Assembly (NCBI GenBank): GCA_001880285.1
Contig: CP016269.1
Coordinates: forward strand, 868,001 to 932,000
Source of the DNA: Flavobacteriaceae bacterium UJ101
Lineage (GTDB): Bacteria > Bacteroidota > Bacteroidia > Flavobacteriales > UJ101
Reading direction: 5' to 3'
DNA length: 64,000 bases
The translations under genes were made by a program, and so were the position numbers. Position 1 is the first letter of the stretch. Every line of letters starts with the position of its first letter. Of this stretch, positions 49,553-64,000 are shown piece by piece. Under the pieces are notes generated by a model. It ran no database searches. It saw nothing but the letters and a program-made list of their open reading frames with translations, and had not been told where the DNA came from.

Positions 49553-51148
49553 TTAAGAAAAATATACGTAAACTCCTACTACAATTAAGCAAATCACCCC
49601 TCCTACCAATGTTGCGTACTTCCATGGTATTATATTCACTTTTCCTGAATCCGTCAATACAAAAGCCTCTTTTCTAGGATATATTTTTCCAATTATTAAC
49701 ATAATTAAAACATTCATAATAAACAAAATAGCCATTACATGTAAAAAATGAGGGTAATTTTCATCTCCTACCACATAAGGTTTTAATACAAATTGACTGA
49801 TACCATATAAAACACTACCTAAAATTACAGCAATTTTAGCTGCCACTGCAGGTACATATTTTGTTAAATAACCTACTACAATAATCGTTAAAATAGGAAT
49901 ACTATAACATCCATTCACCTCCTGTAAATATCCAAATAAACCATCAGGAGCATTTGCTATAAGTGGCGCAATAAACATTGATAAAATGGCTAGTATAATT
50001 CCAAAAACCTTTCCTGCTTTAACTGTCTCTTTATCAGATGCCCCTTTATTAATATATTCTCTATAAATATCCACTCCAAACAAAGTAACCGCACTATTCA
50101 AACCACTATTAAACGAGCTTAAAATAGCACCAAATAGAACAGCTGCAAAAAAGCCAATTAAATAAGTAGGTAATACATTATTTACCAATATAGGGTAAGC
50201 TTGATCAGCAATTTTAATTTGATCAGCATACAAATGATACGCAATCACACCTGGCAAAACAACAATTAAAGGACCCAATATTTTGAGAAAAGAAGCTAAC
50301 AATAATCCTTTTTGTCCCTCTTTTAAATTTTTTGCTCCAAGAGCTCTTTGAATAATAGCCTGATTGGTTCCCCAATAAAACAATTGAACCAACATCATAC
50401 CTGTAAAAATAGTAGAAAAAGGAATATAAGAATCTGGACCTCCTATCGAATTCATATGCTCTGGATGATCAGTAAACAATCGATCTATTCCTTCACTCAA
50501 ACTACCTTCTCCCATAACCATTAAACCAAAAAATGGAATTAACAATCCTCCAACTAATAATCCAATTGCATTAATTGTATCTGAAATGGCTACAGCTTTT
50601 AACCCACCAAAGATAGCATATACTGAACCTATTAAACCTATCCCCCATACGCATACCCAGATAGAGGTTGTATGACTAATACCTAACACATTAGGTATAT
50701 CAAATATTGTACTAACAGCTACTGCTCCAGAATATAATACAATAGGTAATAAAATCACCACATATCCTGACAAAAACAATATTGAAACTATAGTTTTTGT
50801 CGTCTTATCATAACGTTCTTCTAAAAATTGAGGAACTGTAGTAATTCCTCCTTTCAAATAACGAGGCAATAAAAATAAAGCTGTAACAACCATTGCAATA
50901 GCAGCTAATGTTTCCCACGCCATAACCAAAATTCCTTGCTCAAAAGCTTGTCCATTTAAACCAACAATTTGTTCTGTAGATAAATTGGTTAACAATAAAG
51001 AACCTGCAATCACCGGAGCTGTCAAACTTCTTCCTCCCAAGAAATAACCATCCGATGATGATTCATTATTTGACCGTGTCATAAAATAAGATACGAATGC
51101 TACTAACAACGTAAAACCAACAAATGAGATAATTCCAACAAGTTCCAT
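49553..51148 (-). CDS. SLC5-type sodium/solute symporter
   Basis: A 531-residue membrane protein with about 14 hydrophobic segments, of the solute:sodium symporter (SSS) family. The start region ELVGIISFVGFTLLVAFVSY, then GGRSLTAPVIAGSLLLTNLS and SNFNSGLNSA-like FNSGLNSAVTLFGVDIY, matches SglT-type sugar carriers. It is divergent from the sulfatase/beta-helix genes and shares with them an intergenic region bearing the palindrome at 51236-51260, so it probably imports the monosaccharide released from the same glycan. The substrate is not determined. Confidence 0.85.
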   Translation of the reverse strand: MELVGIISFVGFTLLVAFVSYFMTRSNNESSSDGYFLGGRSLTAPVIAGSLLLTNLSTEQIVGLNGQAFEQGILVMAWETLAAIAMVVTALFLLPRYLKGGITTVPQFLEERYDKTTKTIVSILFLSGYVVILLPIVLYSGAVAVSTIFDIPNVLGISHTTSIWVCVWGIGLIGSVYAIFGGLKAVAISDTINAIGLLVGGLLIPFFGLMVMGEGSLSEGIDRLFTDHPEHMNSIGGPDSYIPFSTIFTGMMLVQLFYWGTNQAIIQRALGAKNLKEGQKGLLLASFLKILGPLIVVLPGVIAYHLYADQIKIADQAYPILVNNVLPTYLIGFFAAVLFGAILSSFNSGLNSAVTLFGVDIYREYINKGASDKETVKAGKVFGIILAILSMFIAPLIANAPDGLFGYLQEVNGCYSIPILTIIVVGYLTKYVPAVAAKIAVILGSVLYGISQFVLKPYVVGDENYPHFLHVMAILFIMNVLIMLIIGKIYPRKEAFVLTDSGKVNIIPWKYATLVGGVICLIVVGVYVYFS

Positions 51149-51358: not shown

Positions 51359-51535
51359 ATGAAAACAAAACATGTACTCATTACTCCTTTATTGGGAGTT
51401 TTTAGCATTTCTCTATTTGCTAATAAAAACCTTGACCTTGTAAAGAACTTCTTTACACACAATGATAATATATCATTGAAAAACTCAAATAGTACTTCTT
51501 TATTCAATAGTTTAACAAAAACAAGCTTGTTTTAA
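51359..51535 (+). CDS. 58-residue signal-peptide ORF, possible relic of a beta-helix gene
   Basis: ATG at 51359 to TAA at 51533-51535, 58 residues. The N-terminus MKTKHVLITPLLGVFSISLF is a signal peptide, followed by ANKNLDLVKNFFTHND. The beta-helix protein at 58115 begins MKTK...LSLFANKTSDPVKDSFTNN, the same pattern over about 35 residues, and the DNA is also similar there (for instance TATTTGCTAAYAAAA and CTGTAAAG or TTGTAAAG). Nothing after residue 40 matches, and the frame ends 31 bases before the sulfatase chimera. It could be a decayed N-terminus, a leader peptide gene, or a small secreted protein. Confidence 0.5.
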   Translation: MKTKHVLITPLLGVFSISLFANKNLDLVKNFFTHNDNISLKNSNSTSLFNSLTKTSLF

Positions 51536-51566: not shown

Positions 51567-54500
51567 ATGAAAACAAAAATAATAACACTATTTCTATTTT
51601 TAGCTTTTTCATTATTCGGCCAAGATCAACCTAATATCATTATATTATTAGTAGATGACGCAGGATATGCCGATTGGGGTTACCAAGGATCAAAAACAGT
51701 TCAATCACCTAATGTAGATAAATTAGTATCAGATGGTATGAACTTCACACAAGGTTATGTAACAAATTCCGTTTGTGCACCTTCTAGAGCCGGGATATTA
51801 ACAGGTCAATATCAAAATAGATCTGGTTTTGAATATAATATTGTAAAATATTCTCCTGCTCCATCATATAATCAAGAAGATGTGGGGTTAGAAGTAGGAA
51901 TACCTACTATTGCTGATCGTCTTAGCGAGTTAGGATATTACACAGGTGCTTTTGGTAAATGGCACTTGGGTGAAGATGTAAGTAAATATCACCCTAAAAA
52001 AAGAGGTTTTGACTATTTTTATGGTTTATTAGGTGGTTCAAGATCGTATAATAAACGAGAAACCTCTTCTGATAAAAAATTAATGAGAAATTACACCTAT
52101 GATGAACCAAAAGGTGATTTTTATCTTACTGATCTTTTAACTGATGATTTTCTTGAATTCACTAAAAAATCAAAAGAAAAAGACAAACCTTTCTTTGCTT
52201 ATATGGCTTACACTGCACCTCATGGCCCTTTTGAAGCAAAAGAAATTGATAAAAAACCTTTTGAAAATCTTGGCTTATCCACTAAAAAATTAAAATACCA
52301 CGCAATGATCTACAACTTCGATAAAAATGTAGGAAGAATTGTAGATTATCTTAAAGAAGAAAACATGTATGAAAACACTTTATTTGTGTTTTTAAGTGAT
52401 AATGGAGGTAAAACTATCGTTTCTAACAACGGTATTTTTAGAGGAGGAAAATCTAGTCAATATGAAGGAGGAATTCGTGTCCCTTTTGCAATGACTTGGC
52501 CTGCCAAAATTAATGCTAATTCAAAATATGATGATCAAATTATTTCACTTGACATAGCACCTACTTTAATTGAAGCTGCAGGTGGAACGGTTCAAGAATG
52601 TCAAGAGCTTGATGGTGTGAGTTTATTACCTATTGCTGAAAATCCTAATTTAAAAGCTCATGATGAGTTATATTGGAGAAAATTAGATCAATGGGAAATT
52701 GTTTCAGATGGAACTAATAAAATTATTATAAATAATAATGATTGGGGAGATAGTGATAATGATACCATTATGGTAGATTTAAACAATAACGCTCAAGAAG
52801 ACCTAGAAAAAAATATTTATAATGAAAACCCTAACATTGCTGCACGTTTAGTCAATCTTCATAAATCTTGGAAAGAAGAGCTAGATCTTCCTCATTGGAT
52901 TGGAGACAATGTTTTACAAAAAATTTGTTCAGATGCCTCATCTGCAAAAACTTGTTATAAACTTAAGAATCGTTATGCTAACTTCACAAAACCAGTAATT
53001 GAAACACCTGAATGTGTTGATCCTATTATCTATTATGTGAGTACTTCTTCTGGAAATGATAGTAATAATGGAACATCAAGTGACTCTCCCTGGAAAACAC
53101 TAGAAAGAGTTAACACAGCTACTTTAAATCCAGGAGATCAGATTCTTTTTAAATCAGGCGATACTTTCTCAGGGCAATTAAATGTAGATCACTCAGGAAC
53201 TAAAGGGAAACCTATTAAATTTGGAAAATATGGTACAGGAGATAAACCTATTATAGATGGAGCTAATGCACCTGGAGGAGCTTATTTAGCTGCTATTTAT
53301 GTAAACAATCATGAATATATAGAGTTTGATGGATTACATATCACAAATGATCGTAAAATATCAAGAACTGGTGTTAGCAATAAAGAAGGTTATGGTATTT
53401 TAATTCATAATGATGGAGATCAAATTATGCATCACTTTAGATTCAATAATTTACATGTAGAAGGAGTTTATCCTATCAGTACTGCAGGACAGGAACATGA
53501 TGATTTGAAATCAGCCGGTATCTATGTTAAAACAGAAGCTAATGAAGCTGGTAAAGAAAAACATATCAAAGATGTTATTGTTGAAAACAGTTATTTTACC
53601 GATACTCAAAAATTTGGCTTTTGGTCTCAACATAAAGGTGGCTCAGGAGATGAAATCATGGTTCGCAACATGGATTTTGTGTTACGAAACAATCATTTCT
53701 ATAAAACAGGAGGATCAGGAATCACTCCAGGAAAAACTTATAACGTATTAGTAGAACATAATATTTTTGATTACCCTGGATCTAACATGGATTCAAGGAT
53801 GGCGAAACGAGGAAGTGGAGCTTGGTTTTTCAATTGTCGAAATGTAATTGCTCAACACAATATTTCACGACATGCTCGAGGTGATGGAGATACTTATGGA
53901 ATTCATATTGACATGAAAAACAAATATGTAATCGTACAATACAATTACAGCGAAGATAGTGAAGGAGGATTCGTTGAAGTTTTAGGAGATAATGAATACG
54001 CTACTTACCGCTACAACATTAGTGTCAATGATGCACTTAGAACAAAAAAAGGAAATACATTGTGGGTTTCTCCATATTCTTTCTCTTCAGGAAACACACG
54101 ATCTGACAAAGTTTATATTTATAACAACTCTGTTTATTTAAACAAAAATACAACTGGAGGAAATATGAAACCTGGTCTTTACTTTGAGAGTAAGAATGTA
54201 TACGTCTATAATAATGCCTTCTTTGCTGATGGAAACTCTTCCATGGGGATTAAAGAATATGTTGTAAAGACAGATTCGGGTACTGATGTTTACGTTGATC
54301 ATAATTTATTCCAAGGTAATATAAAAGCAAACTTTATATCAAGAGATAAAAATGCAGTTCGAGGAAATCCTTTATATGCTACTCCAGGTTCTTTTGAAGC
54401 TGAGGGATACAAATTACTTGAAGGAAGTCCTGCATTAAACGCTGGGAAATCTTTTACTGAACCACCATTTCCTATGGCTGGACAAGGAATTTTCAAAGAT

Positions 54501-55664
54501 ATTACAGCAAAAGCAACTAAAGACTATTTTGGAAATCCTGTAGATTTAACAAGTTCTACTCATATTGGAGCATATAATGGAACTCCATTACCCAATACTA
54601 ACCCTACTTCAAATATATACGAAGCTGAAAATGCAACGCTTTCAGGAAATGTCAATATACTTAATTGTAATCAAGCATCTGAAGGTAAAATGGCTTCAGG
54701 CTCTAATAATGGTGAAAGTAATCATGTTAACTTTGCTAATGTTACAGTTAATGAAACAGGAAAGTATAATCTTGTAATTAGTTATATGGCTACTTCTAAT
54801 AGAAATCTTTCTTATAAGATTAACAACGGAGCAACACAAACTATTTCTGTAAATGCATCAGGTAGCTGGTGTTATCAAGGAGGAGCCCCAGCTAATAAAA
54901 CTATTGAGATTAATTTAAATACAGGAGTAAATTCTATTAAATTCTTCAATTCACCTATAATTGATAAAATTGAAATAGTTCCAGCAATTAAAACAAGTTA
55001 CGAAGCAGAAGAAGCTCAGTTAGCAGGAACTGCTGCAATTGGAAACTGTAATACTTCTTCCAATAATCAATTGGTAAAATCAATTTTAAACGGAAGTAAT
55101 AATTCAGTTACCTTTAACAATGTTCAGACGACAGAAGCAGGTGCTTATACAATTAAAGTACATTACTTCTCAAACAATACTCGAACTTTCACTATTGAAA
55201 CAAATGGTGTTGCAGTAAATCATTCTGTACCTAGAAGTGGAAACTGGTGCTACCAAGGAGGATCACCTAGCTCTAAAACGTTTACTATAAATTTAAACAA
55301 AGGTTCAAATACCATTAAAATCTATAATATTCATTCTTTAGATAGAATAGAGATCAACAAAGCAAATTCTTCTAGCAGAATAGTTGATACAATAACACCT
55401 TCTGTGAAAGAGGAATTAACACCTGAGTCCAAAATGGTTATTTATCCAAATATTGTTAATAGAGGAGAGTTTATTAACCTTAAAAACGTTAAATCATCTT
55501 CTATTGTTACAATTTATAACTCAAGTGGACAATTAGTTTATAAAGCAAATAACCAAACTCGTAATCATCAAAAAATTCCAACTAGTAGATTACGTTCTGG
55601 TATTTATTTTATAAAAATAATAGATGGAAAACAAACACTTAACTCTAAAATCATCATTAAGTAA
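51567..55664 (+). CDS. Chimeric sulfatase/beta-helix enzyme with two binding modules and T9SS tail
   Basis: A 1365-residue secreted protein. Residues 1-18 are a signal peptide; about 20-480 an S1 (formylglycine) sulfatase with metal Asp30/Asp31 in LLVDDAGYADWG and the maturation motif C70-APSR; about 488-1008 a right-handed parallel beta-helix (YYVSTSSGNDSNNGTS, GDQILFKSGDTFSGQ, EYIEFDGLHITNDRK); about 1015-1137 and 1143-1265 two CBM6/35-like beta-sandwiches (YEAENATLSG...WCYQGG...DKIEI); 1289-1365 a type A T9SS sorting domain (MVIYPNIVNRGEF...SGIYFIKI). The beta-helix closely resembles that of the protein at 58115. It should desulfate and cleave a sulfated glycan at the cell surface; whether the helix is a lyase or hydrolase is unknown. 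First long gene of the locus. Confidence 0.88.
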   Translation: MKTKIITLFLFLAFSLFGQDQPNIIILLVDDAGYADWGYQGSKTVQSPNVDKLVSDGMNFTQGYVTNSVCAPSRAGILTGQYQNRSGFEYNIVKYSPAPSYNQEDVGLEVGIPTIADRLSELGYYTGAFGKWHLGEDVSKYHPKKRGFDYFYGLLGGSRSYNKRETSSDKKLMRNYTYDEPKGDFYLTDLLTDDFLEFTKKSKEKDKPFFAYMAYTAPHGPFEAKEIDKKPFENLGLSTKKLKYHAMIYNFDKNVGRIVDYLKEENMYENTLFVFLSDNGGKTIVSNNGIFRGGKSSQYEGGIRVPFAMTWPAKINANSKYDDQIISLDIAPTLIEAAGGTVQECQELDGVSLLPIAENPNLKAHDELYWRKLDQWEIVSDGTNKIIINNNDWGDSDNDTIMVDLNNNAQEDLEKNIYNENPNIAARLVNLHKSWKEELDLPHWIGDNVLQKICSDASSAKTCYKLKNRYANFTKPVIETPECVDPIIYYVSTSSGNDSNNGTSSDSPWKTLERVNTATLNPGDQILFKSGDTFSGQLNVDHSGTKGKPIKFGKYGTGDKPIIDGANAPGGAYLAAIYVNNHEYIEFDGLHITNDRKISRTGVSNKEGYGILIHNDGDQIMHHFRFNNLHVEGVYPISTAGQEHDDLKSAGIYVKTEANEAGKEKHIKDVIVENSYFTDTQKFGFWSQHKGGSGDEIMVRNMDFVLRNNHFYKTGGSGITPGKTYNVLVEHNIFDYPGSNMDSRMAKRGSGAWFFNCRNVIAQHNISRHARGDGDTYGIHIDMKNKYVIVQYNYSEDSEGGFVEVLGDNEYATYRYNISVNDALRTKKGNTLWVSPYSFSSGNTRSDKVYIYNNSVYLNKNTTGGNMKPGLYFESKNVYVYNNAFFADGNSSMGIKEYVVKTDSGTDVYVDHNLFQGNIKANFISRDKNAVRGNPLYATPGSFEAEGYKLLEGSPALNAGKSFTEPPFPMAGQGIFKDITAKATKDYFGNPVDLTSSTHIGAYNGTPLPNTNPTSNIYEAENATLSGNVNILNCNQASEGKMASGSNNGESNHVNFANVTVNETGKYNLVISYMATSNRNLSYKINNGATQTISVNASGSWCYQGGAPANKTIEINLNTGVNSIKFFNSPIIDKIEIVPAIKTSYEAEEAQLAGTAAIGNCNTSSNNQLVKSILNGSNNSVTFNNVQTTEAGAYTIKVHYFSNNTRTFTIETNGVAVNHSVPRSGNWCYQGGSPSSKTFTINLNKGSNTIKIYNIHSLDRIEINKANSSSRIVDTITPSVKEELTPESKMVIYPNIVNRGEFINLKNVKSSSIVTIYNSSGQLVYKANNQTRNHQKIPTSRLRSGIYFIKIIDGKQTLNSKIIIK

Positions 55665-55684: not shown

Positions 55685-55719
55685 CATCCCCTATAAAATC
55701 ACTTATAGGGGTGTTTTTT
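55685..55719 (+). terminator. Terminator after the sulfatase/beta-helix gene
   Basis: A 9-bp stem (55688-55696 CCCCTATAA with 55703-55711) then TGTTTTTT, 15 bases before the next ATG. It closely resembles the terminator after the 58115 gene (61356-61393), which fits duplication of the gene together with its 3' flank. Readthrough into the second sulfatase seems likely given the short gap. Confidence 0.75.
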
Positions 55720-55733
55720 CTAAAATACAAAAT

Positions 55734-57938
55734 ATGAAAACAAAACTTTTACTACTACTATTTTCTATCTCTTCCCTATTTTTAAAAAGTCAAGAAAAAC
55801 CCAATATACTATTTATTATTGCTGATGATTTAGGAAAATATTTACCTATGTATGGTGACAGACAAGCACAAGCACCTACAATAGAAAAAATAGGAGAAAA
55901 TGGATTGATTTTCGATCGTGCTTACAGCAATTTCCCTGTTTGTGGCCCATCAAGAGCCAGTATGCTTACAGGACTCTACCCAGAAACTATTTTTAATGAA
56001 ACAGGAAAAGGTTATAATAATAATGACTTAAAAACTCATGAATTAGCAGACAAAATTTTAAAACAAATAGTTCCTGATGGAAAAACCTTAATGAATTATT
56101 TAAAAACAGAAGGAAACTATTATGTTCTTGGAGGAGGAAAAATCTATCATAGTGCAGAAAAATCACAAACCAACGATTATTCTAAAATGATCAACACCAG
56201 TAAACTCCCCGCTTATTCAAAAAATAAAAAAAATAAGGTAATTGTAGAAGATCACCATTACACTGAAGATTATGAACACCGAGATGGTTATTTAGCTAAT
56301 AATTTAGAAAAAAAAATACGTGAATATGCCAATGGAATAATAGGTGATGGAAAACCTTTATTTATGACGATGGGATTACAAAAACCTCATGGTCCTTACG
56401 CTGCTCCCACTCATTATTTTAATGATTTTCCAATCGATAGAACGCATATAAATGTAACCTCTTTTTTCGATCAACCTAATGACGTACTTTCAACATATAC
56501 ATTATCACCAGCTGAAAATATTTTAAAAAATTATAAAGATGTTGCTTTAAATAGTGAAAATTATGTTGATATAGCTCTTGGGCAACGTTTTTCTAACCTA
56601 AAGCCTGAATTACAGAAAAAAATTGTTCATGGATATTATACCTGTATCAGCTTTATTGATCAACAAATAAAAAAAGTTGTAGATGTTTTAAAAGAAAAAG
56701 GATTATATGACAATACAATCATTATCATTACTTCTGATCACGGATATAAACTGGGACATTATGATCGATTAGGTAAATACAGTACACATGAAACAGATAC
56801 TTCCGTTCCTCTTATTATTTCTGGACCTGGAATTACATCCAATACAAGAACCTCTTCAATTGCTCAACTTATTGATCTGTTCCCTACTCTTTGCGACCTT
56901 ACCTCTACTCCAATTCCTGATTGGATTCAAGGAACTAGCTTAAAACCTATATTATCAGATCCAACTCAAAAAGTAAATCAATATAGTTATACCGTTGTGA
57001 ATAAAGGAGGTAGTTGGCTAGGAAAAAGTATAATCAATGATGAAGGAATACGTTACACAAAATATGTAAATAAATTAACAGGTGATTATATAGACCCTCC
57101 CGGAAAATCACTTTCTCAAGAATTATATGATTATTCTAATGAAGTATATACCGCTGATAATAAAATATTAGATAACGAATACGCTCCTTTTATAACTAAT
57201 TTATCTGAAGCAATCAACTCCTTCTTTACAACAGGAAATTATGCTAAAGTTGTAAAACAAAATTTTGTATACGAAGCTGAAGATGCTGAAATATCTGGTA
57301 AAACGGCTATAGTGAATTGTAATACCTCTTCAAATCAAAAGCATGTAAAATCAATTACGAGCGGTAATAATCATGCCGTTACTTTTAATAATATTATGAT
57401 AGACGAAGCGGGAACATACAATATGAACCTTCATTATTTTTCTAATAGCTCTAGAACATTTAGTACACTTATTAATGGAAACACATCAAATTATTCGATT
57501 CCAAAAAGTGGCAAATGGTGCTATCAAGGAGGAACTCCTGCTGTAAAAACCATTAGTATCAATTTAAATCGAGGTATGAATACAATTAAAATCTACAATA
57601 TTCATTCTTTAGATAAAATTGAACTTGACAAAGTAACTATTTCAGCAAAAAAAGTACCCTTACCGATAAGCACTACTATTCAAAATCAATTACCATCAAA
57701 ACCCCAAATAGCAATCTATCCAAATATTGTTAACAAAGGAGAATTCATCAAACTTAAAAATGTAACCAAATTCTCCATTATTACCCTATATAATTCTAAT
57801 GGGCAATTAGTATACAAAAACACATTAAAAAATAGTTCTTCTGAAGAAATACCAACAAGTAAATTACAGGCTGGCTTGTATTTCGTAAAAATTATAAACA
57901 ACAAACAAATTTTCAACTCTAAAATAATGATTAAATAA
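55734..57938 (+). CDS. Iduronate-2-sulfatase-like sulfatase with binding module and T9SS tail
   Basis: A 734-residue protein. Signal peptide to about residue 19; S1 sulfatase about 20-500 with IIADDLGKY metal Asp pair (31-32) and the formylglycine motif C70-GPSR; LQKPHGPYAAP and DHGYKLGHYDRLGKYSTHE are the blocks of the iduronate-2-sulfatase-like branch. Residues about 511-633 form one CBM6/35-like module (YEAEDAEISG...WCYQGGTP...DKIEL), and 658-734 a T9SS type A tail (IAIYPNIVNKGEF). It probably removes a sulfate ester from the same glycan as the chimera. A sulfatase-maturing enzyme is not in the window. Confidence 0.9.
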   Translation: MKTKLLLLLFSISSLFLKSQEKPNILFIIADDLGKYLPMYGDRQAQAPTIEKIGENGLIFDRAYSNFPVCGPSRASMLTGLYPETIFNETGKGYNNNDLKTHELADKILKQIVPDGKTLMNYLKTEGNYYVLGGGKIYHSAEKSQTNDYSKMINTSKLPAYSKNKKNKVIVEDHHYTEDYEHRDGYLANNLEKKIREYANGIIGDGKPLFMTMGLQKPHGPYAAPTHYFNDFPIDRTHINVTSFFDQPNDVLSTYTLSPAENILKNYKDVALNSENYVDIALGQRFSNLKPELQKKIVHGYYTCISFIDQQIKKVVDVLKEKGLYDNTIIIITSDHGYKLGHYDRLGKYSTHETDTSVPLIISGPGITSNTRTSSIAQLIDLFPTLCDLTSTPIPDWIQGTSLKPILSDPTQKVNQYSYTVVNKGGSWLGKSIINDEGIRYTKYVNKLTGDYIDPPGKSLSQELYDYSNEVYTADNKILDNEYAPFITNLSEAINSFFTTGNYAKVVKQNFVYEAEDAEISGKTAIVNCNTSSNQKHVKSITSGNNHAVTFNNIMIDEAGTYNMNLHYFSNSSRTFSTLINGNTSNYSIPKSGKWCYQGGTPAVKTISINLNRGMNTIKIYNIHSLDKIELDKVTISAKKVPLPISTTIQNQLPSKPQIAIYPNIVNKGEFIKLKNVTKFSIITLYNSNGQLVYKNTLKNSSSEEIPTSKLQAGLYFVKIINNKQIFNSKIMIK

Positions 57939-58114: not shown

Positions 58115-61100
58115 ATGAAAACAAAAAGTACACTTACTTTCAGTTTGTTAGTTCTTCTTAGCCTTTCGCTATTTGCTAACAAAACTTCTGACCCTGTAAA
58201 GGATTCCTTTACAAACAATCATGTATTATTATCATGGTTGAACTATTCACTATTTTCCAATGCAACGGAAGAGAATTCTTCTATGATTTATGAAGCTGAA
58301 GAAGCTACTTTACATGGAAAAAACCCTCTTATAAGATCCTGTAGTTCTGCTTCTAATGGAAAATTAGTCACTAGAACCATAGATGGATCCTGCAATTCCA
58401 TTACTTTTAAAAATATTAATGCAACTAAAGCAGGTTCTTATGATATTGTATTAGATTACATATCACCTGTAGAAAGAACTTTTACTATAGTACTTAATGG
58501 GGAAGTTACAAATTACACTATAGATAAAAGTGGAAAATGGTGCTATCAAGGGGGGGCTCCTGCTTCTAAAACAATTTCCGTAATTTTAAAAGAAGGTGCC
58601 AATACTTTAAAAATATACGACATCCATACCTTAGATAGAATCACCGTAAAAAAAACATCCGATGTTTATCATGTAAGTACTTCTGATGGAGATGATTCAA
58701 ATGATGGATTTTCACCTCAATCTCCATGGAAATCTTTAGATCGAGTAAATCAAGCAGTTCTAGCTCCAGGAGATCAAATTCTTTTCAAATCAGGTGATAC
58801 TTTTTTAGGACAATTAAATGTTGACCACTCAGGTACAGCTGAAAATCCTATTATCTTTGGACGATATGGTACAGGTGACAAACCTAAAATTGATGGAGCT
58901 AAGGCCCCAGGAGGAGCTTATTTAGCTGCAATTTATGTGAATAATCAAGAATATATTGAGTTTGATAATCTTTATATTACGAATGATCGTAAAACTTCAA
59001 GAGAAGGTGTTGATGATCTTCAAGGTTATGGTATTTATGTTCATAACTCAGGAACCAAACCTATGCATCATTTCAAATTTTCAAACTTAACTGTCGAAGG
59101 AATTTATGCGGTAAGTACTGAAGGACAAGATCATGATGCTTTAAAAACAGCTGGAATTTATGTTAAAAGTGAAAAAAACACTGTTCTTAATGAAGAAAAA
59201 TACGTCAAAGATGTATTAGTTGAAAATTCTTACTTCACTAATATAGCAAAGTTCGGATTTTGGTCACAACATAAAGGTAATGATAGTGGCATAGGAAATG
59301 ATATTGTAAATCGTAACAATGATTTTGTTTTTAGAAACAATCATTTCTACAAAACAGGAGGTTCTGGTATCACACCTGGAAGAACTTATAATGTATTAAT
59401 GGAACACAACCTTATCGAATATCCAGGTTCTGATATGGATCCTCGAATGGCAAAAAGAGGAAGTGGTGCTTGGTTTTTTAATTGTCATAACGTTATTGCT
59501 CAATACAATAGAGTCTACCACGCTCGTGGTGAAAACGATACCTACGGTATTCATATTGATATGAAAAATAAATACGTAGTAGTCCAATATAATTATACAG
59601 AAGATAGTGAAGGTGGTTTTGCTGAGATACTGGGAGATAATGAATACGCAACATACCGTTATAACATTAGTGTAAACGAAGGTTTAAGAGCAAAAAAAGG
59701 GAATACACTTTGGGTTTCTCCTTGGTCTTTTTCACAAGGAAATACGCGCTCTGATAAAGTTTATATTTACAATAACTCCATTTATGTTGAAAAAAATACT
59801 AATGGTAAATTTATGAACCCTGGACTTGCCTTTGAAAGTAAAAACGTTTATGTATATAACAATGCTTTTCATGTAATATCAGGTTCTACCATTGGTGTAA
59901 AAGAATTAAAACTTATCACCGATGACGGAACAGATGTACATATAGACAATAACCTCTATCAAGGATATATCATTGAAGGATTTACAAATAAAGATCAGAA
60001 TGCTATTTTTGATAATCCTCTTTATACCGACGCTGGAATTTTTGAAGCAGATGGTTACAAATTACAAGAAACCAGCCCTGCTTTAAATGCAGGTAGACCA
60101 ATTGAAGAACCTCCTTTCCCAATGGCTGGTCAAGGTATTTTTAAAGATATTCCTGCTAAAGCTACCAAAGATTACTTCGGAAACTCTGTTGATCTTTCTA
60201 AAAAGGTACATATTGGAGCTTATAATGGTGCTCCTACTCCATACACAGGACCAAAAGAAGAAACACCTATTACAGGAAATGAAAACGGTATATATGAAGC
60301 AGAAGATGCTATATTCTCTGGGAATTCCATATTATCTTCTTGTGATGCTGCTTCAATGGACCTTATGGTTGGTGGAGTTGCCAAAGATGATAAAAGTGCC
60401 GTACTATTTCCTTATGTTGATGTAGAAGTTTCAGGAAATTATTATTTAGATATAAGTTACATAACAGGTGCTGCACGTACATTGTATTACAAAATTAATG
60501 ATGGTAATTATATACCTCTAAAAGTTAATGCTACAGGATGGTGCGGTCAATTAGAACAGTCTGTGACCAATACTGTTCTAGTTAATCTAAAAAAAGGACG
60601 TAATACCATTAAATTATACAACGTTGGTAGCTTAGATAAAATCCAAGTTAGACTTAATGAAGAAAGCAACAATCTTATATATGAAGCTGAAAATGCAACC
60701 TTATCAGGTAATGCAAGCGTTATATCATGTGCTAATGCTTCACAAGAGTTAATGGTAAAAGAAGTTTCTGGTTCAAGTCAAAATGCCGTTACATTCTCAA
60801 ATGTAAATATTGAAAACGAAGGAAGTTATAAGCTTCATATTCATTATATCTCTGGAACAGCTAAAACAGCTAGTTATAGTGTAAATAATGGATCGGCTCA
60901 AACAGTCAATACTCCTGCTACTGGATGGTGTAATCAGGTGACACAGGCTGCTACAAAAACCGTTTCAATAGCATTAAACAAAGGAAATAATGTGATTAAA
61001 ATTTACAATATCGGTAGTCTTGATAAAATTTCTCTAGAAAAAACAGACGCATCTTCAGCTAGAAAGATTGTAAACCATTCTATCTCTTCTACCACTCAAG

Positions 61101-61342: not shown

Positions 61343-61355
61343 ATCAGTAAATCAC

Positions 61356-61393
61356 AACATCCCTATAAAAATATTATTTATAGGGATGTTTTT
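61356..61393 (+). terminator. Terminator after the beta-helix gene
   Basis: A 13-bp stem (61356-61368 AACATCCCTATAA with 61378-61390) followed by TTT, 13 bases after the stop. Its arms share ATCCC-CTATAA-type sequence with the terminator at 55685-55719. Confidence 0.8.
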
Positions 61394-61535
61394 ATAAAAC
61401 CATTATATGAAGAGTATTTTATACACCAATAAATTTCATTTTTAAAAACTAAAAAATATAAAAAATTATAACTCACTTAAATACAGAGCATTACATATCT
61501 TAAAGATAAATTAATTAAAAACTTTTACGAAAAAA

Positions 61536-61592: not shown

Positions 61593-64000
61593 ATGAAAAT
61601 GTTAATATTAAACCATGAGAAGTTATATCTCAAAAGGATGATAGGACTTATTTTGGTCTTGTTTATTAGTATTATCGGAACTACTAACTTATACGGACAA
61701 GAACAAAACAAAATTACGATTAAAGGAGTCGCCCAAGACAGTTCGGGAGAAGCACTTCCTGAAGTTTTAATTTATGAAAAAAATAATCCTGACAATGAAG
61801 TTTTCTCCGATATTGACGGGAACTATTCTATTCAAGCTAATCCAAACTCAACTTTAGTATTTGAATTTGTAGGCTTAGATACTCAAGAAATTGATGTAAA
61901 TGGACAAACAAATCTAAATGCAACATTAGGAACAGCACAAACAAACGATATAAACGAAGTTATTGTGGTGGGATTTGGAACAACTACAAAAGCAAATGTA
62001 ACAGGTGCTGTTTCACAAATTAAAATTGATGAAGTTTCACAGCCTGTATCCAATCCTACTCAATTATTATATGGGCAAGCATCAGGGGTAAACTTAGTTC
62101 AAAATAGTGGTGAACCAGGTAGTAACTCAACTATTAATATTCGTGGGGCAGGAATTGGAAGTACTCCTCCTCTCATTGTGGTAGATGGTATGATTGTCGA
62201 TTCATTTGATGAAGTTTCACCTTCTGACATAGAAACCTTTACTATTTTAAAAGATGCTGCTTCAGCTTCTATTTATGGATCTCAAGCTGCAAATGGTGTA
62301 ATACTTATTACAACTAAATCAGGTAAAACAGGTTCCATGAAAATTAACATAAATAGTTCTACTGGGTATACCACACCTACAACATTACCCGATATGTTAA
62401 GAAGCACAGATTATATGAATGCCATGAACGAACGTGAAATTTACGGTTTCGGGCAAGACCCTAATTCTATATACAGTGAAGAAGTTATACAAGCTTACCA
62501 AAATGGATCATTAGATAAAAATTATTATGGAGATACTGAATGGTTAGATGAATTATTCGGAACAGGTGCTTTTTCAGATCAATATTTATCAATTAGAGGA
62601 GGCAGTGAAAAAAGCAGGTATTTATTCTCCGCTCGATATAATAAACAAGAAGGGACACTAAAACATAATTCCGAACTGGATTCTTATCAAGTAAGAGCCA
62701 AGATGGAATTTGATATGACCGATTGGTTAACTCTAGGAACCAATATTACAGGAAATCAACGAGAAAGTATTTCTCCTAGACAAAGTATTGAAGATATCGT
62801 TCGAACTGCTATGCAAGCTAACCCATTACGTCCTGTTTATTATACAAATGGTGATTACAATGCAGTAGGAGCAACAGGCGTAGATGCTTTAAATTCTTTA
62901 GAAGATCCATCTTTAAGTCCTGTATACCGTTCTATTGACGGAAGAATTGAACGTGATCGTTTCCGATTAAACTCTCAATTTTATTTAAAAGTCAAATTAT
63001 TAGAAGGCTTAACCTATGAACCTACCTTTAATTATAAATACAGTAATACAAATGTTCAACGTTTAACACCTACTTATACGTTATATGATGGTCCTGACAG
63101 AGCAAATATTGCTTTGCAAAGAACTGAAAACACATTATTTAGAAATGCAATTCTTCAAAAGGACTTCCAAATTGATAACTTATTACGTTATAAAAGAAAC
63201 TTAGGAGAAAACCATAAAATAGGTGGTTTTATAGGACATCAATTGATTGTTGAACATGATGAAGGAACATTCAATACTACTGTTGAAAATCTACCAAGTG
63301 ATGGATTATCTGGCTTAGGAAATGGATCATTACCTATAACAACTGGGCAAGCAGATTCTGAATTTAGAATGCAATCTTTTTTTGGTCGTTTGGAATATTC
63401 CTTCAAAAACAAATACTTATTTGAAGCTAATATGAGAGTTGACGAAGCTTCTGTTTTTCCAGAATCAGATCGTCAAGCCTTCTTCCCTTCTTTTTCTGCA
63501 GGATGGAAAATCTCTGAAGAATCTTTCATGAATCAATTTAAAAACCTTAATCTATTAAAATTAAGAGGTAGTTGGGGACAATTAGGAAACACGAATAATT
63601 TAAGACAAATCTCAGAAGCACCTTATTTACAGACTTATAATATTACTGACGGTTATATCTTAGGAGATGATGTACTAAATACAGGTATTACACCAGGACG
63701 TCTAGCTGAAGATTTAACTTGGGAAACTTCTGAAAGTTTGGATTTTGGTATTGATTTAAGAATGTGGAATGCCCTATCTATAACTGCTGATTGGTATAAG
63801 CGTGATACATATGACATTATTCAATTAGATAATACTCCTGATTTAGCAGGAACATTACCAGCCTTTATCAACTCTGGAGATGTACGCAACACAGGATTTG
63901 AATTTGCTATCGATTATAACAATAATCATAATGCTTTTAAATATAACATAGGAGTTAATTTTAATATTAATGAGAATGAAATCACTTCACTTCCTGAAGG
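61593..64000 (+). CDS. susC: SusC/RagA-type TonB-dependent receptor, 3' end cut by window edge
   Basis: Open from ATG 61593 to the window edge, 802 codons and 2 bases without a stop. The N-terminus has a signal peptide (to about residue 38, LYGQ), a carboxypeptidase-regulatory-like domain (ITIKGVAQDSSGEALPEVL ... VFSDIDGNYSIQAN), then the plug with VVVGFGTTTKANVTGAV, ASGVNLVQNSGEPGSN and the SusC signature ILKDAASASIYGSQAANGV, followed by barrel strands. Such receptors form the outer-membrane channel of glycan import, capped by a SusD lipoprotein, which would be expected just beyond the edge. It is in the same orientation as the sulfatase genes and carries the shared operator. Confidence 0.95.
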   Translation, partial: MKMLILNHEKLYLKRMIGLILVLFISIIGTTNLYGQEQNKITIKGVAQDSSGEALPEVLIYEKNNPDNEVFSDIDGNYSIQANPNSTLVFEFVGLDTQEIDVNGQTNLNATLGTAQTNDINEVIVVGFGTTTKANVTGAVSQIKIDEVSQPVSNPTQLLYGQASGVNLVQNSGEPGSNSTINIRGAGIGSTPPLIVVDGMIVDSFDEVSPSDIETFTILKDAASASIYGSQAANGVILITTKSGKTGSMKININSSTGYTTPTTLPDMLRSTDYMNAMNEREIYGFGQDPNSIYSEEVIQAYQNGSLDKNYYGDTEWLDELFGTGAFSDQYLSIRGGSEKSRYLFSARYNKQEGTLKHNSELDSYQVRAKMEFDMTDWLTLGTNITGNQRESISPRQSIEDIVRTAMQANPLRPVYYTNGDYNAVGATGVDALNSLEDPSLSPVYRSIDGRIERDRFRLNSQFYLKVKLLEGLTYEPTFNYKYSNTNVQRLTPTYTLYDGPDRANIALQRTENTLFRNAILQKDFQIDNLLRYKRNLGENHKIGGFIGHQLIVEHDEGTFNTTVENLPSDGLSGLGNGSLPITTGQADSEFRMQSFFGRLEYSFKNKYLFEANMRVDEASVFPESDRQAFFPSFSAGWKISEESFMNQFKNLNLLKLRGSWGQLGNTNNLRQISEAPYLQTYNITDGYILGDDVLNTGITPGRLAEDLTWETSESLDFGIDLRMWNALSITADWYKRDTYDIIQLDNTPDLAGTLPAFINSGDVRNTGFEFAIDYNNNHNAFKYNIGVNFNINENEITSLPE

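Follow-up and report, generated by a model that had tools for sequence, protein, structure and literature searches.

An S1 sulfatase joined to a GH136-like beta-helix in a single flavobacterial gene, and the traces of its origin

What does a protein do when a sulfatase and a right-handed beta-helix share one reading frame, and how does such a gene arise? The question is raised by a gene of Flavobacteriaceae bacterium UJ101, here called the chimera. It lies in the window, the whole stretch of 64,000 nucleotides that was analysed (contig CP016269.1, 868,001 to 932,000); positions below are those of the window unless the contig is named. The original prediction, made from the letters and their open reading frames, described an S1 sulfatase with the maturation motif C70-APSR, followed in frame by a beta-helix, two carbohydrate-binding modules (CBMs) and a tail for the type IX secretion system (T9SS). 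Pfam and NCBIfam models, homology and an AlphaFold2 model confirm each of these parts. The chimera is a real, well-formed two-domain protein, and it is probably bifunctional.

The fusion itself stands as it was predicted. The frame from 51567 to 55664 runs through 1365 residues without a stop codon or a frameshift, and it is continuous between residues 470 and 490. Within residues 421-530 the sole internal start codon is GTG491, which has no obvious ribosome-binding site. A frameshift, a misassembly or two genes misread as one can be ruled out from this continuous frame and the lack of a plausible internal start. Misassembly is also unlikely because the genome is a single contig (3.07 Mb, 99.95% complete) and because 47% of third positions differ between the chimera and its paralogue at 58115. 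With two catalytic domains in a single open frame, the chimera has the build of a sulfatase-glycosidase hybrid. Pfam further finds CBM_35 in two stretches and Por_Secre_tail at residues 1292-1364. The NCBIfam model for T9SS type A sorting domains, TIGR04183, matches the C-terminal residues 1292-1365 with 45 bits against a cut-off of 23, as expected of a type A cargo protein.

No Pfam family covers residues 485-1012, the region of the beta-helix. When a profile built from 12 such helices was compared with solved structures, lacto-N-biosidases of glycoside hydrolase family 136 (GH136) matched at E 1.9e-53 to 3.8e-40. Four of the five were matched over the whole domain (for instance, E 7.6e-52 and 1.7e-42 over 519/522 positions), and the next solved family reached only 2e-6. 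An AlphaFold2 model from an alignment of 8 rows is a right-handed beta-helix (predicted local distance difference test, pLDDT, 80.9; predicted template modelling score, pTM, 0.85). Foldseek placed GH136 enzymes at all of ranks 1-6. Structure alignment with VIA gave Z scores of 31.5, 30.8 and 29.8; the aligned regions span 443-464 residues (464 at Z 31.5), and sequence identity in them is 25-28%. Beta-helices of other families, such as BT_1002, epimerases and polysaccharide lyases of family PL6, score Z 24-29 over shorter stretches, so the fold alone would not settle the family. By sequence GH136 is far ahead, and fucanase-type and other beta-helix families are rejected on that ground. GH174, GH187 and GH82 are absent from the match lists, which by itself proves nothing.

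The catalytic residues of the family are kept as well. In ErLnb136 of E. ramulus, D568 is the acid/base and D575 the nucleophile (PMC7335108). The chimera's D775 and D782, also seven residues apart, align with this pair; the chain numbering in the alignment runs two above that of PMC7335108. Both aspartates, together with G778, H780 and E804, are invariant in the 12-helix alignment (positions converted from helix numbering). The helix, predicted to be an enzyme, thus shares its catalytic aspartates with an active family. In one subgroup of the helices two extra residues stand between the aspartates (GDTYGAGGHID), and this insertion may mean a different specificity. Carboxylicivirga and Flammeovirga carry both subgroups in tandem.

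The known GH136 lacto-N-biosidases (LnbX, 5gqc; TnX, 7v6m; ErLnb136, 6kqs) therefore resemble the chimera's helix over the whole domain and in the spacing of the aspartate pair. They differ in that identity is only 25-28%, that the helix is seen without a helical partner, and that they act on milk or mucin glycans, whereas the helix occurs in a sulfated-galactan context. The equivalog model for LnbX, NF047897 of NCBIfam, gives the chimera 52.6 bits, far below its cut-off of 2500. Because of this score and the helical partner not being seen, the helix is called GH136-like and not a member of GH136.

The sulfatase half is a complete S1 domain. The Pfam family Sulfatase (PF00884) matches residues 22-339 (E 7e-58; 196.7 bits against a cut-off of 25), and an SGSH_C-type match extends to residue 371. 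Besides C70-APSR, the S1 motifs VDD29-31, FGKWH129-133, APH217-219, SDN277-279 and GGK293-295 are intact, with the metal and active-site residues D30/D31, K131/H133, H219, D278/N279 and K295. The alignment with the exo-4S-kappa-carrageenan sulfatase 6prm (E 1.9e-87) spans all of residues 20-452; iota-carrageenan endo-4S sulfatases come next, then a sulfatase named S1_19. The seven best solved chains (E 1.9e-87 to 1.8e-70) consist of carrageenan 4-sulfatases and the one named S1_19. This homology points to O4-sulfated galactose as the target. The nearest sulfatase paralogue in the genome, at 46% identity, is a standalone protein from the same locus, and its nearest solved structure is likewise 6prm. 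The genome holds 13 sulfatases, eight of them in the locus of the chimera; those of the locus are all of the Cys type.

Evidence for how the gene arose is found within the locus. The original prediction derived the chimera from a sulfatase joined to a copy of the gene at 58115, and this origin is supported: the two helices are sisters (72% identity, support 100/99), and a remnant gene start lies upstream of the chimera. The same prediction had the beta-helix standing alone in the paralogue. A helix is indeed present there, but a CBM precedes it and two CBMs follow. A CBM-like module also precedes the helix in relatives elsewhere, and in the chimera the sulfatase occupies that place. The helix of the chimera has a shorter branch than that of the paralogue, so it is not a decayed copy.

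Aligned with residues 1-52 of the paralogue, the product of the remnant open reading frame scores 90; 2000 shuffles gave a mean of 31 (standard deviation 5.3, maximum 57). Similarity between the two DNA sequences reaches about 60 nucleotides upstream of the ATG. The chimera's own start matches that of the paralogue poorly, with a score of 25. On the simplest reading, the paralogue was copied in tandem, and a sulfatase gene, bringing its own signal peptide, apparently displaced the copy's N-terminal CBM and severed the old gene start. The tail of the chimera is a mosaic too, since its last CBM has its nearest relative in the sulfatase at 55734 (59%).

Table 1. Positions of the chimera, its parts and the neighbouring features in the window.
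Feature	Position	Strand	Evidence
SSF-type sodium/solute symporter (PRK10484 family), divergent neighbour	49553..51148	-	Pfam, NCBIfam
Remnant open reading frame, 58 residues; fossil gene start, like signal peptide and pre-CBM segment of the 58115 paralogue	51359..51535	+	alignment
Chimera, open reading frame of 1365 residues	51567..55664	+	open reading frame
Signal peptide, residues 1-19	51567..51623	+	MKTKIITLFLFLAFSLFGQ, inferred from sequence
S1 sulfatase domain, residues 20-452; nearest is S1_19 exo-4S-kappa-carrageenan sulfatase (6prm)	51624..52922	+	Pfam, homology
Maturation motif C70-APSR	51774..51788	+	motif inspection
GH136-like right-handed beta-helix, residues 485-1012	53019..54602	+	profile, AlphaFold2 model, structure alignment
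Putative catalytic pair D775 (acid/base) and D782 (nucleophile) in GDTYGIHID	53889..53912	+	alignment; roles from PMC7335108
CBM35-like module 1, residues 1017-1126	54615..54944	+	Pfam
CBM35-like module 2, residues about 1142-1264; nearest is CBM of the 55734 sulfatase (59%)	54990..55358	+	Pfam
T9SS type A sorting domain, residues 1292-1364	55440..55658	+	Pfam, NCBIfam
S1 sulfatase, CBM35-like module and T9SS domain, 734 residues, C70-GPSR	55734..57938	+	Pfam, NCBIfam
Paralogue: CBM, GH136-like beta-helix, CBM, CBM, T9SS domain; 1075 residues	58115..61342	+	Pfam, NCBIfam
SusC-like TonB-dependent transporter, runs on past the window	61593..63998	+	locus content

The surroundings of the chimera (Table 1) indicate what it may act on. 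Past the window (contig 929001-948999) the locus contains SusC, SusD, a GH2 beta-galactosidase, six S1 sulfatases, an aldose epimerase and an NrtR/AraR-like regulator, after which come galactokinase (galK) and galactose-1-phosphate uridylyltransferase (galT). Standalone relatives of the helix lie near sulfatases in two loci of other Flavobacteriales, and those in Labilibacter adjoin a GH50 beta-agarase. Since the locus has SusC/D, GH2, six more sulfatases and genes for galactose catabolism, its target is probably a sulfated galactan, which is the best-supported substrate. The substrates first proposed for testing are narrowed accordingly: sulfated galactans stand, and no neighbouring gene in the locus supports fucoidan, ulvan or chondroitin. 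For the other secreted sulfatase of the window, at 55734-57938, no solved relative was found at E 1e-40 or better.

These parts can be combined into one proposal, for which the chances look about even. The chimera would be a T9SS-secreted enzyme with two catalytic domains, serving a locus for the use of a sulfated galactan. Its N-terminal S1_19-like sulfatase would take off a sulfate, probably from O4 of galactose. The GH136-like helix would then act as a retaining hydrolase on the beta-galactosidic bond next to the unit that has lost its sulfate and free a short oligosaccharide or a disaccharide, while the CBMs would keep the protein on the polymer. The products would be imported via SusC/D, finished by the periplasmic GH2 and six more sulfatases, and passed on to GalK/GalT. 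As for its origin, the CBM-helix-CBM gene at 58115 would have been duplicated in tandem, and a sulfatase gene would have taken the place of the N-terminal CBM of the copy.

The domain content with its secretion signals, the helix family and its conserved aspartates, the genes of the locus and the remnant gene start are shown. We infer the substrate, the order of action, the coupling of the two halves and the exo or endo mode of the chimera, and known systems serve as guides. In P36, a GH78|S1_25 protein that acts on ulvan, the two domains work one after the other (PMC8511951). In the use of carrageenan, S1_19B precedes GH167, and a disaccharide is freed only once the 4-sulfate has been removed (PMC6923384). 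These two cases make it plausible that the sulfatase of the chimera acts first, and by analogy a coupling of desulfation to cleavage is plausible as well. In the use of lambda-carrageenan, sulfatases alternate with GH2 (PMC12549532).

The likeness to each system is partial. P36 of Formosa agariphila is, like the chimera, one secreted polypeptide that unites a glycosidase and an S1 sulfatase in a utilisation locus of a marine flavobacterium (PMC8511951). It differs in the sulfatase subfamily (S1_25), in its unrelated glycosidase family (GH78) and in its substrate, ulvan instead of what is probably a galactan. S1_19B (6prm) is homologous to the chimera's sulfatase over the whole domain and readies a unit for an exo enzyme that cleaves beta-galactosides, but it and GH167 are separate proteins, and GH167 belongs to clan GH-A and has no beta-helix (PMC6923384). 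The lambda-carrageenan cascade of Pseudoalteromonas resembles the UJ101 locus in its GH2 beta-galactosidase, its several S1 sulfatases and galactose as end product; unlike the chimera, it uses GH150 and GH110, separate proteins, and sulfatases of S1_8 and S1_15 (PMC12549532).

Some findings count against the proposal of a sulfatase that desulfates and a helix that then cuts. The substrate and the linkage are assigned from neighbouring genes. A structure prediction of both domains together (nine rows) gave the sulfatase half a pLDDT mostly below 50, with no domain orientation readable. Maturation of C70 is not assured, because no canonical formylglycine-generating enzyme (FGE) or anaerobic sulfatase-maturing enzyme (anSME) was found: the CxxxxC active-site pair is missing from every FGE-family protein of the genome, and no protein reaches the cut-off for anSME, although such searches do not prove absence. 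The FGE-family matches that do occur resemble gliding proteins, EgtB and an NirV-like protein. In a genome so nearly complete, this lack of a maturase would suit a sulfatase half that is inactive in UJ101, its C70 unmatured, and that stands in for the lost CBM only as a spacer or for binding; its position where a CBM once was agrees with that. Such a reading is nevertheless improbable. Every S1 motif is intact, and 13 sulfatases in the genome, eight of them in this locus, would make little sense without a maturation route, so an unrecognised maturase is more likely than an inactive sulfatase.

The helix can also be read differently. Enzymes of GH136 reportedly depend on a helical partner, either a second domain or a co-encoded subunit (PMC8106489), a further difficulty for the proposal: no unassigned segment of the chimera is of this kind and no unassigned open reading frame of at least 120 residues adjoins it, the partner sequence itself not having been searched for. 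Since that partner, which helps to shape the active site in GH136, is not seen here, the helix could instead be a surface hydrolase of the endo type, opening the polymer. The sulfatase would then work independently, and the fusion would spare a secretion signal and CBMs without any coupling. Apart from sulfatases, the only T9SS enzymes of the locus are the two helices, in the chimera and in the 58115 protein, which would make them the cutters of the polymer outside the cell; no GH16 protein is near, the genome's only two lying some 460 kb away, and all three secreted proteins carry CBMs and T9SS tails. Against an endo mode, GH136 is described as having a pocket, which sets it apart from beta-helix enzymes of the endo type (PMC8106489), and the sulfatase nearest to that of the chimera works in exo fashion (PMC6923384); we consider this alternative unlikely, if not strongly so. 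That the helix is a lyase, an epimerase or a binding domain and no hydrolase is highly improbable. The right-handed beta-helix is common to PL6 lyases, epimerases and tailspikes, with Z scores of 24-29 here, but the profiles put GH136 more than 30 orders of magnitude ahead of PL6 and others, and the two catalytic aspartates of GH136 are invariant in the family.

How unusual is the combination? Genomes of the order (396), the class (395) and the phylum (395; about 1,060 distinct in all) were searched, together with 12 from two related orders. A second frame with sulfatase and helix was found neither in these nor in three named loci; as only the top few candidates per genome were scored, the sampling is not exhaustive and rare chimeras may be missed. 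In the sampled genomes the helix occurs as a separate protein, and close matches mostly have 550-1250 residues. No other genome represents the genus or family of UJ101. To call the fusion unprecedented would be too strong. Since sulfatase-glycosidase hybrids such as the ulvan enzyme P36 exist, the kind is known, and only the pairing of an S1 sulfatase with a GH136-like helix is new.

A search of the literature turned up no relevant report of GH136 in marine loci with sulfatases. The helix, whose catalytic residues are named, is a concrete candidate for a family of galactan-cleaving enzymes, related to GH136, that has gone unrecognised. Tentatively, and somewhat short of an even chance, it may be the founder of a family neighbouring GH136 that acts on galactans, needs no helical partner and is spread through marine Bacteroidota in loci of agar type or rich in sulfatases; in UJ101 it would be wired to its own sulfatase to desulfate and then cut. 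The steps of the fusion, namely the intact paralogue, the chimera and the leftover gene start, are preserved within 10 kb. Because the fused and the unfused form are kept in one locus, the claim of coupling by fusion is open to a direct comparison of the two. The identity of the helix and these preserved traces are the most valuable results.

A third, distant paralogue of the helix (549 residues, 33% identity) lies on the minus strand at contig 486220-487614, alone between uvrC and a subtilase-T9SS gene, and a similar gene is present in one other genome (G275). A promoter scan was uninformative (66 against 60 expected). Two similar terminator-like hairpins, each with a run of T after it, end the chimera gene (55688-55711, CCCCTATAA...TTATAGGGG) and the 58115 gene (about 61355-61395, CCCTATAAA...TTTATAGGG), so the three genes for secreted enzymes may be separate transcripts.

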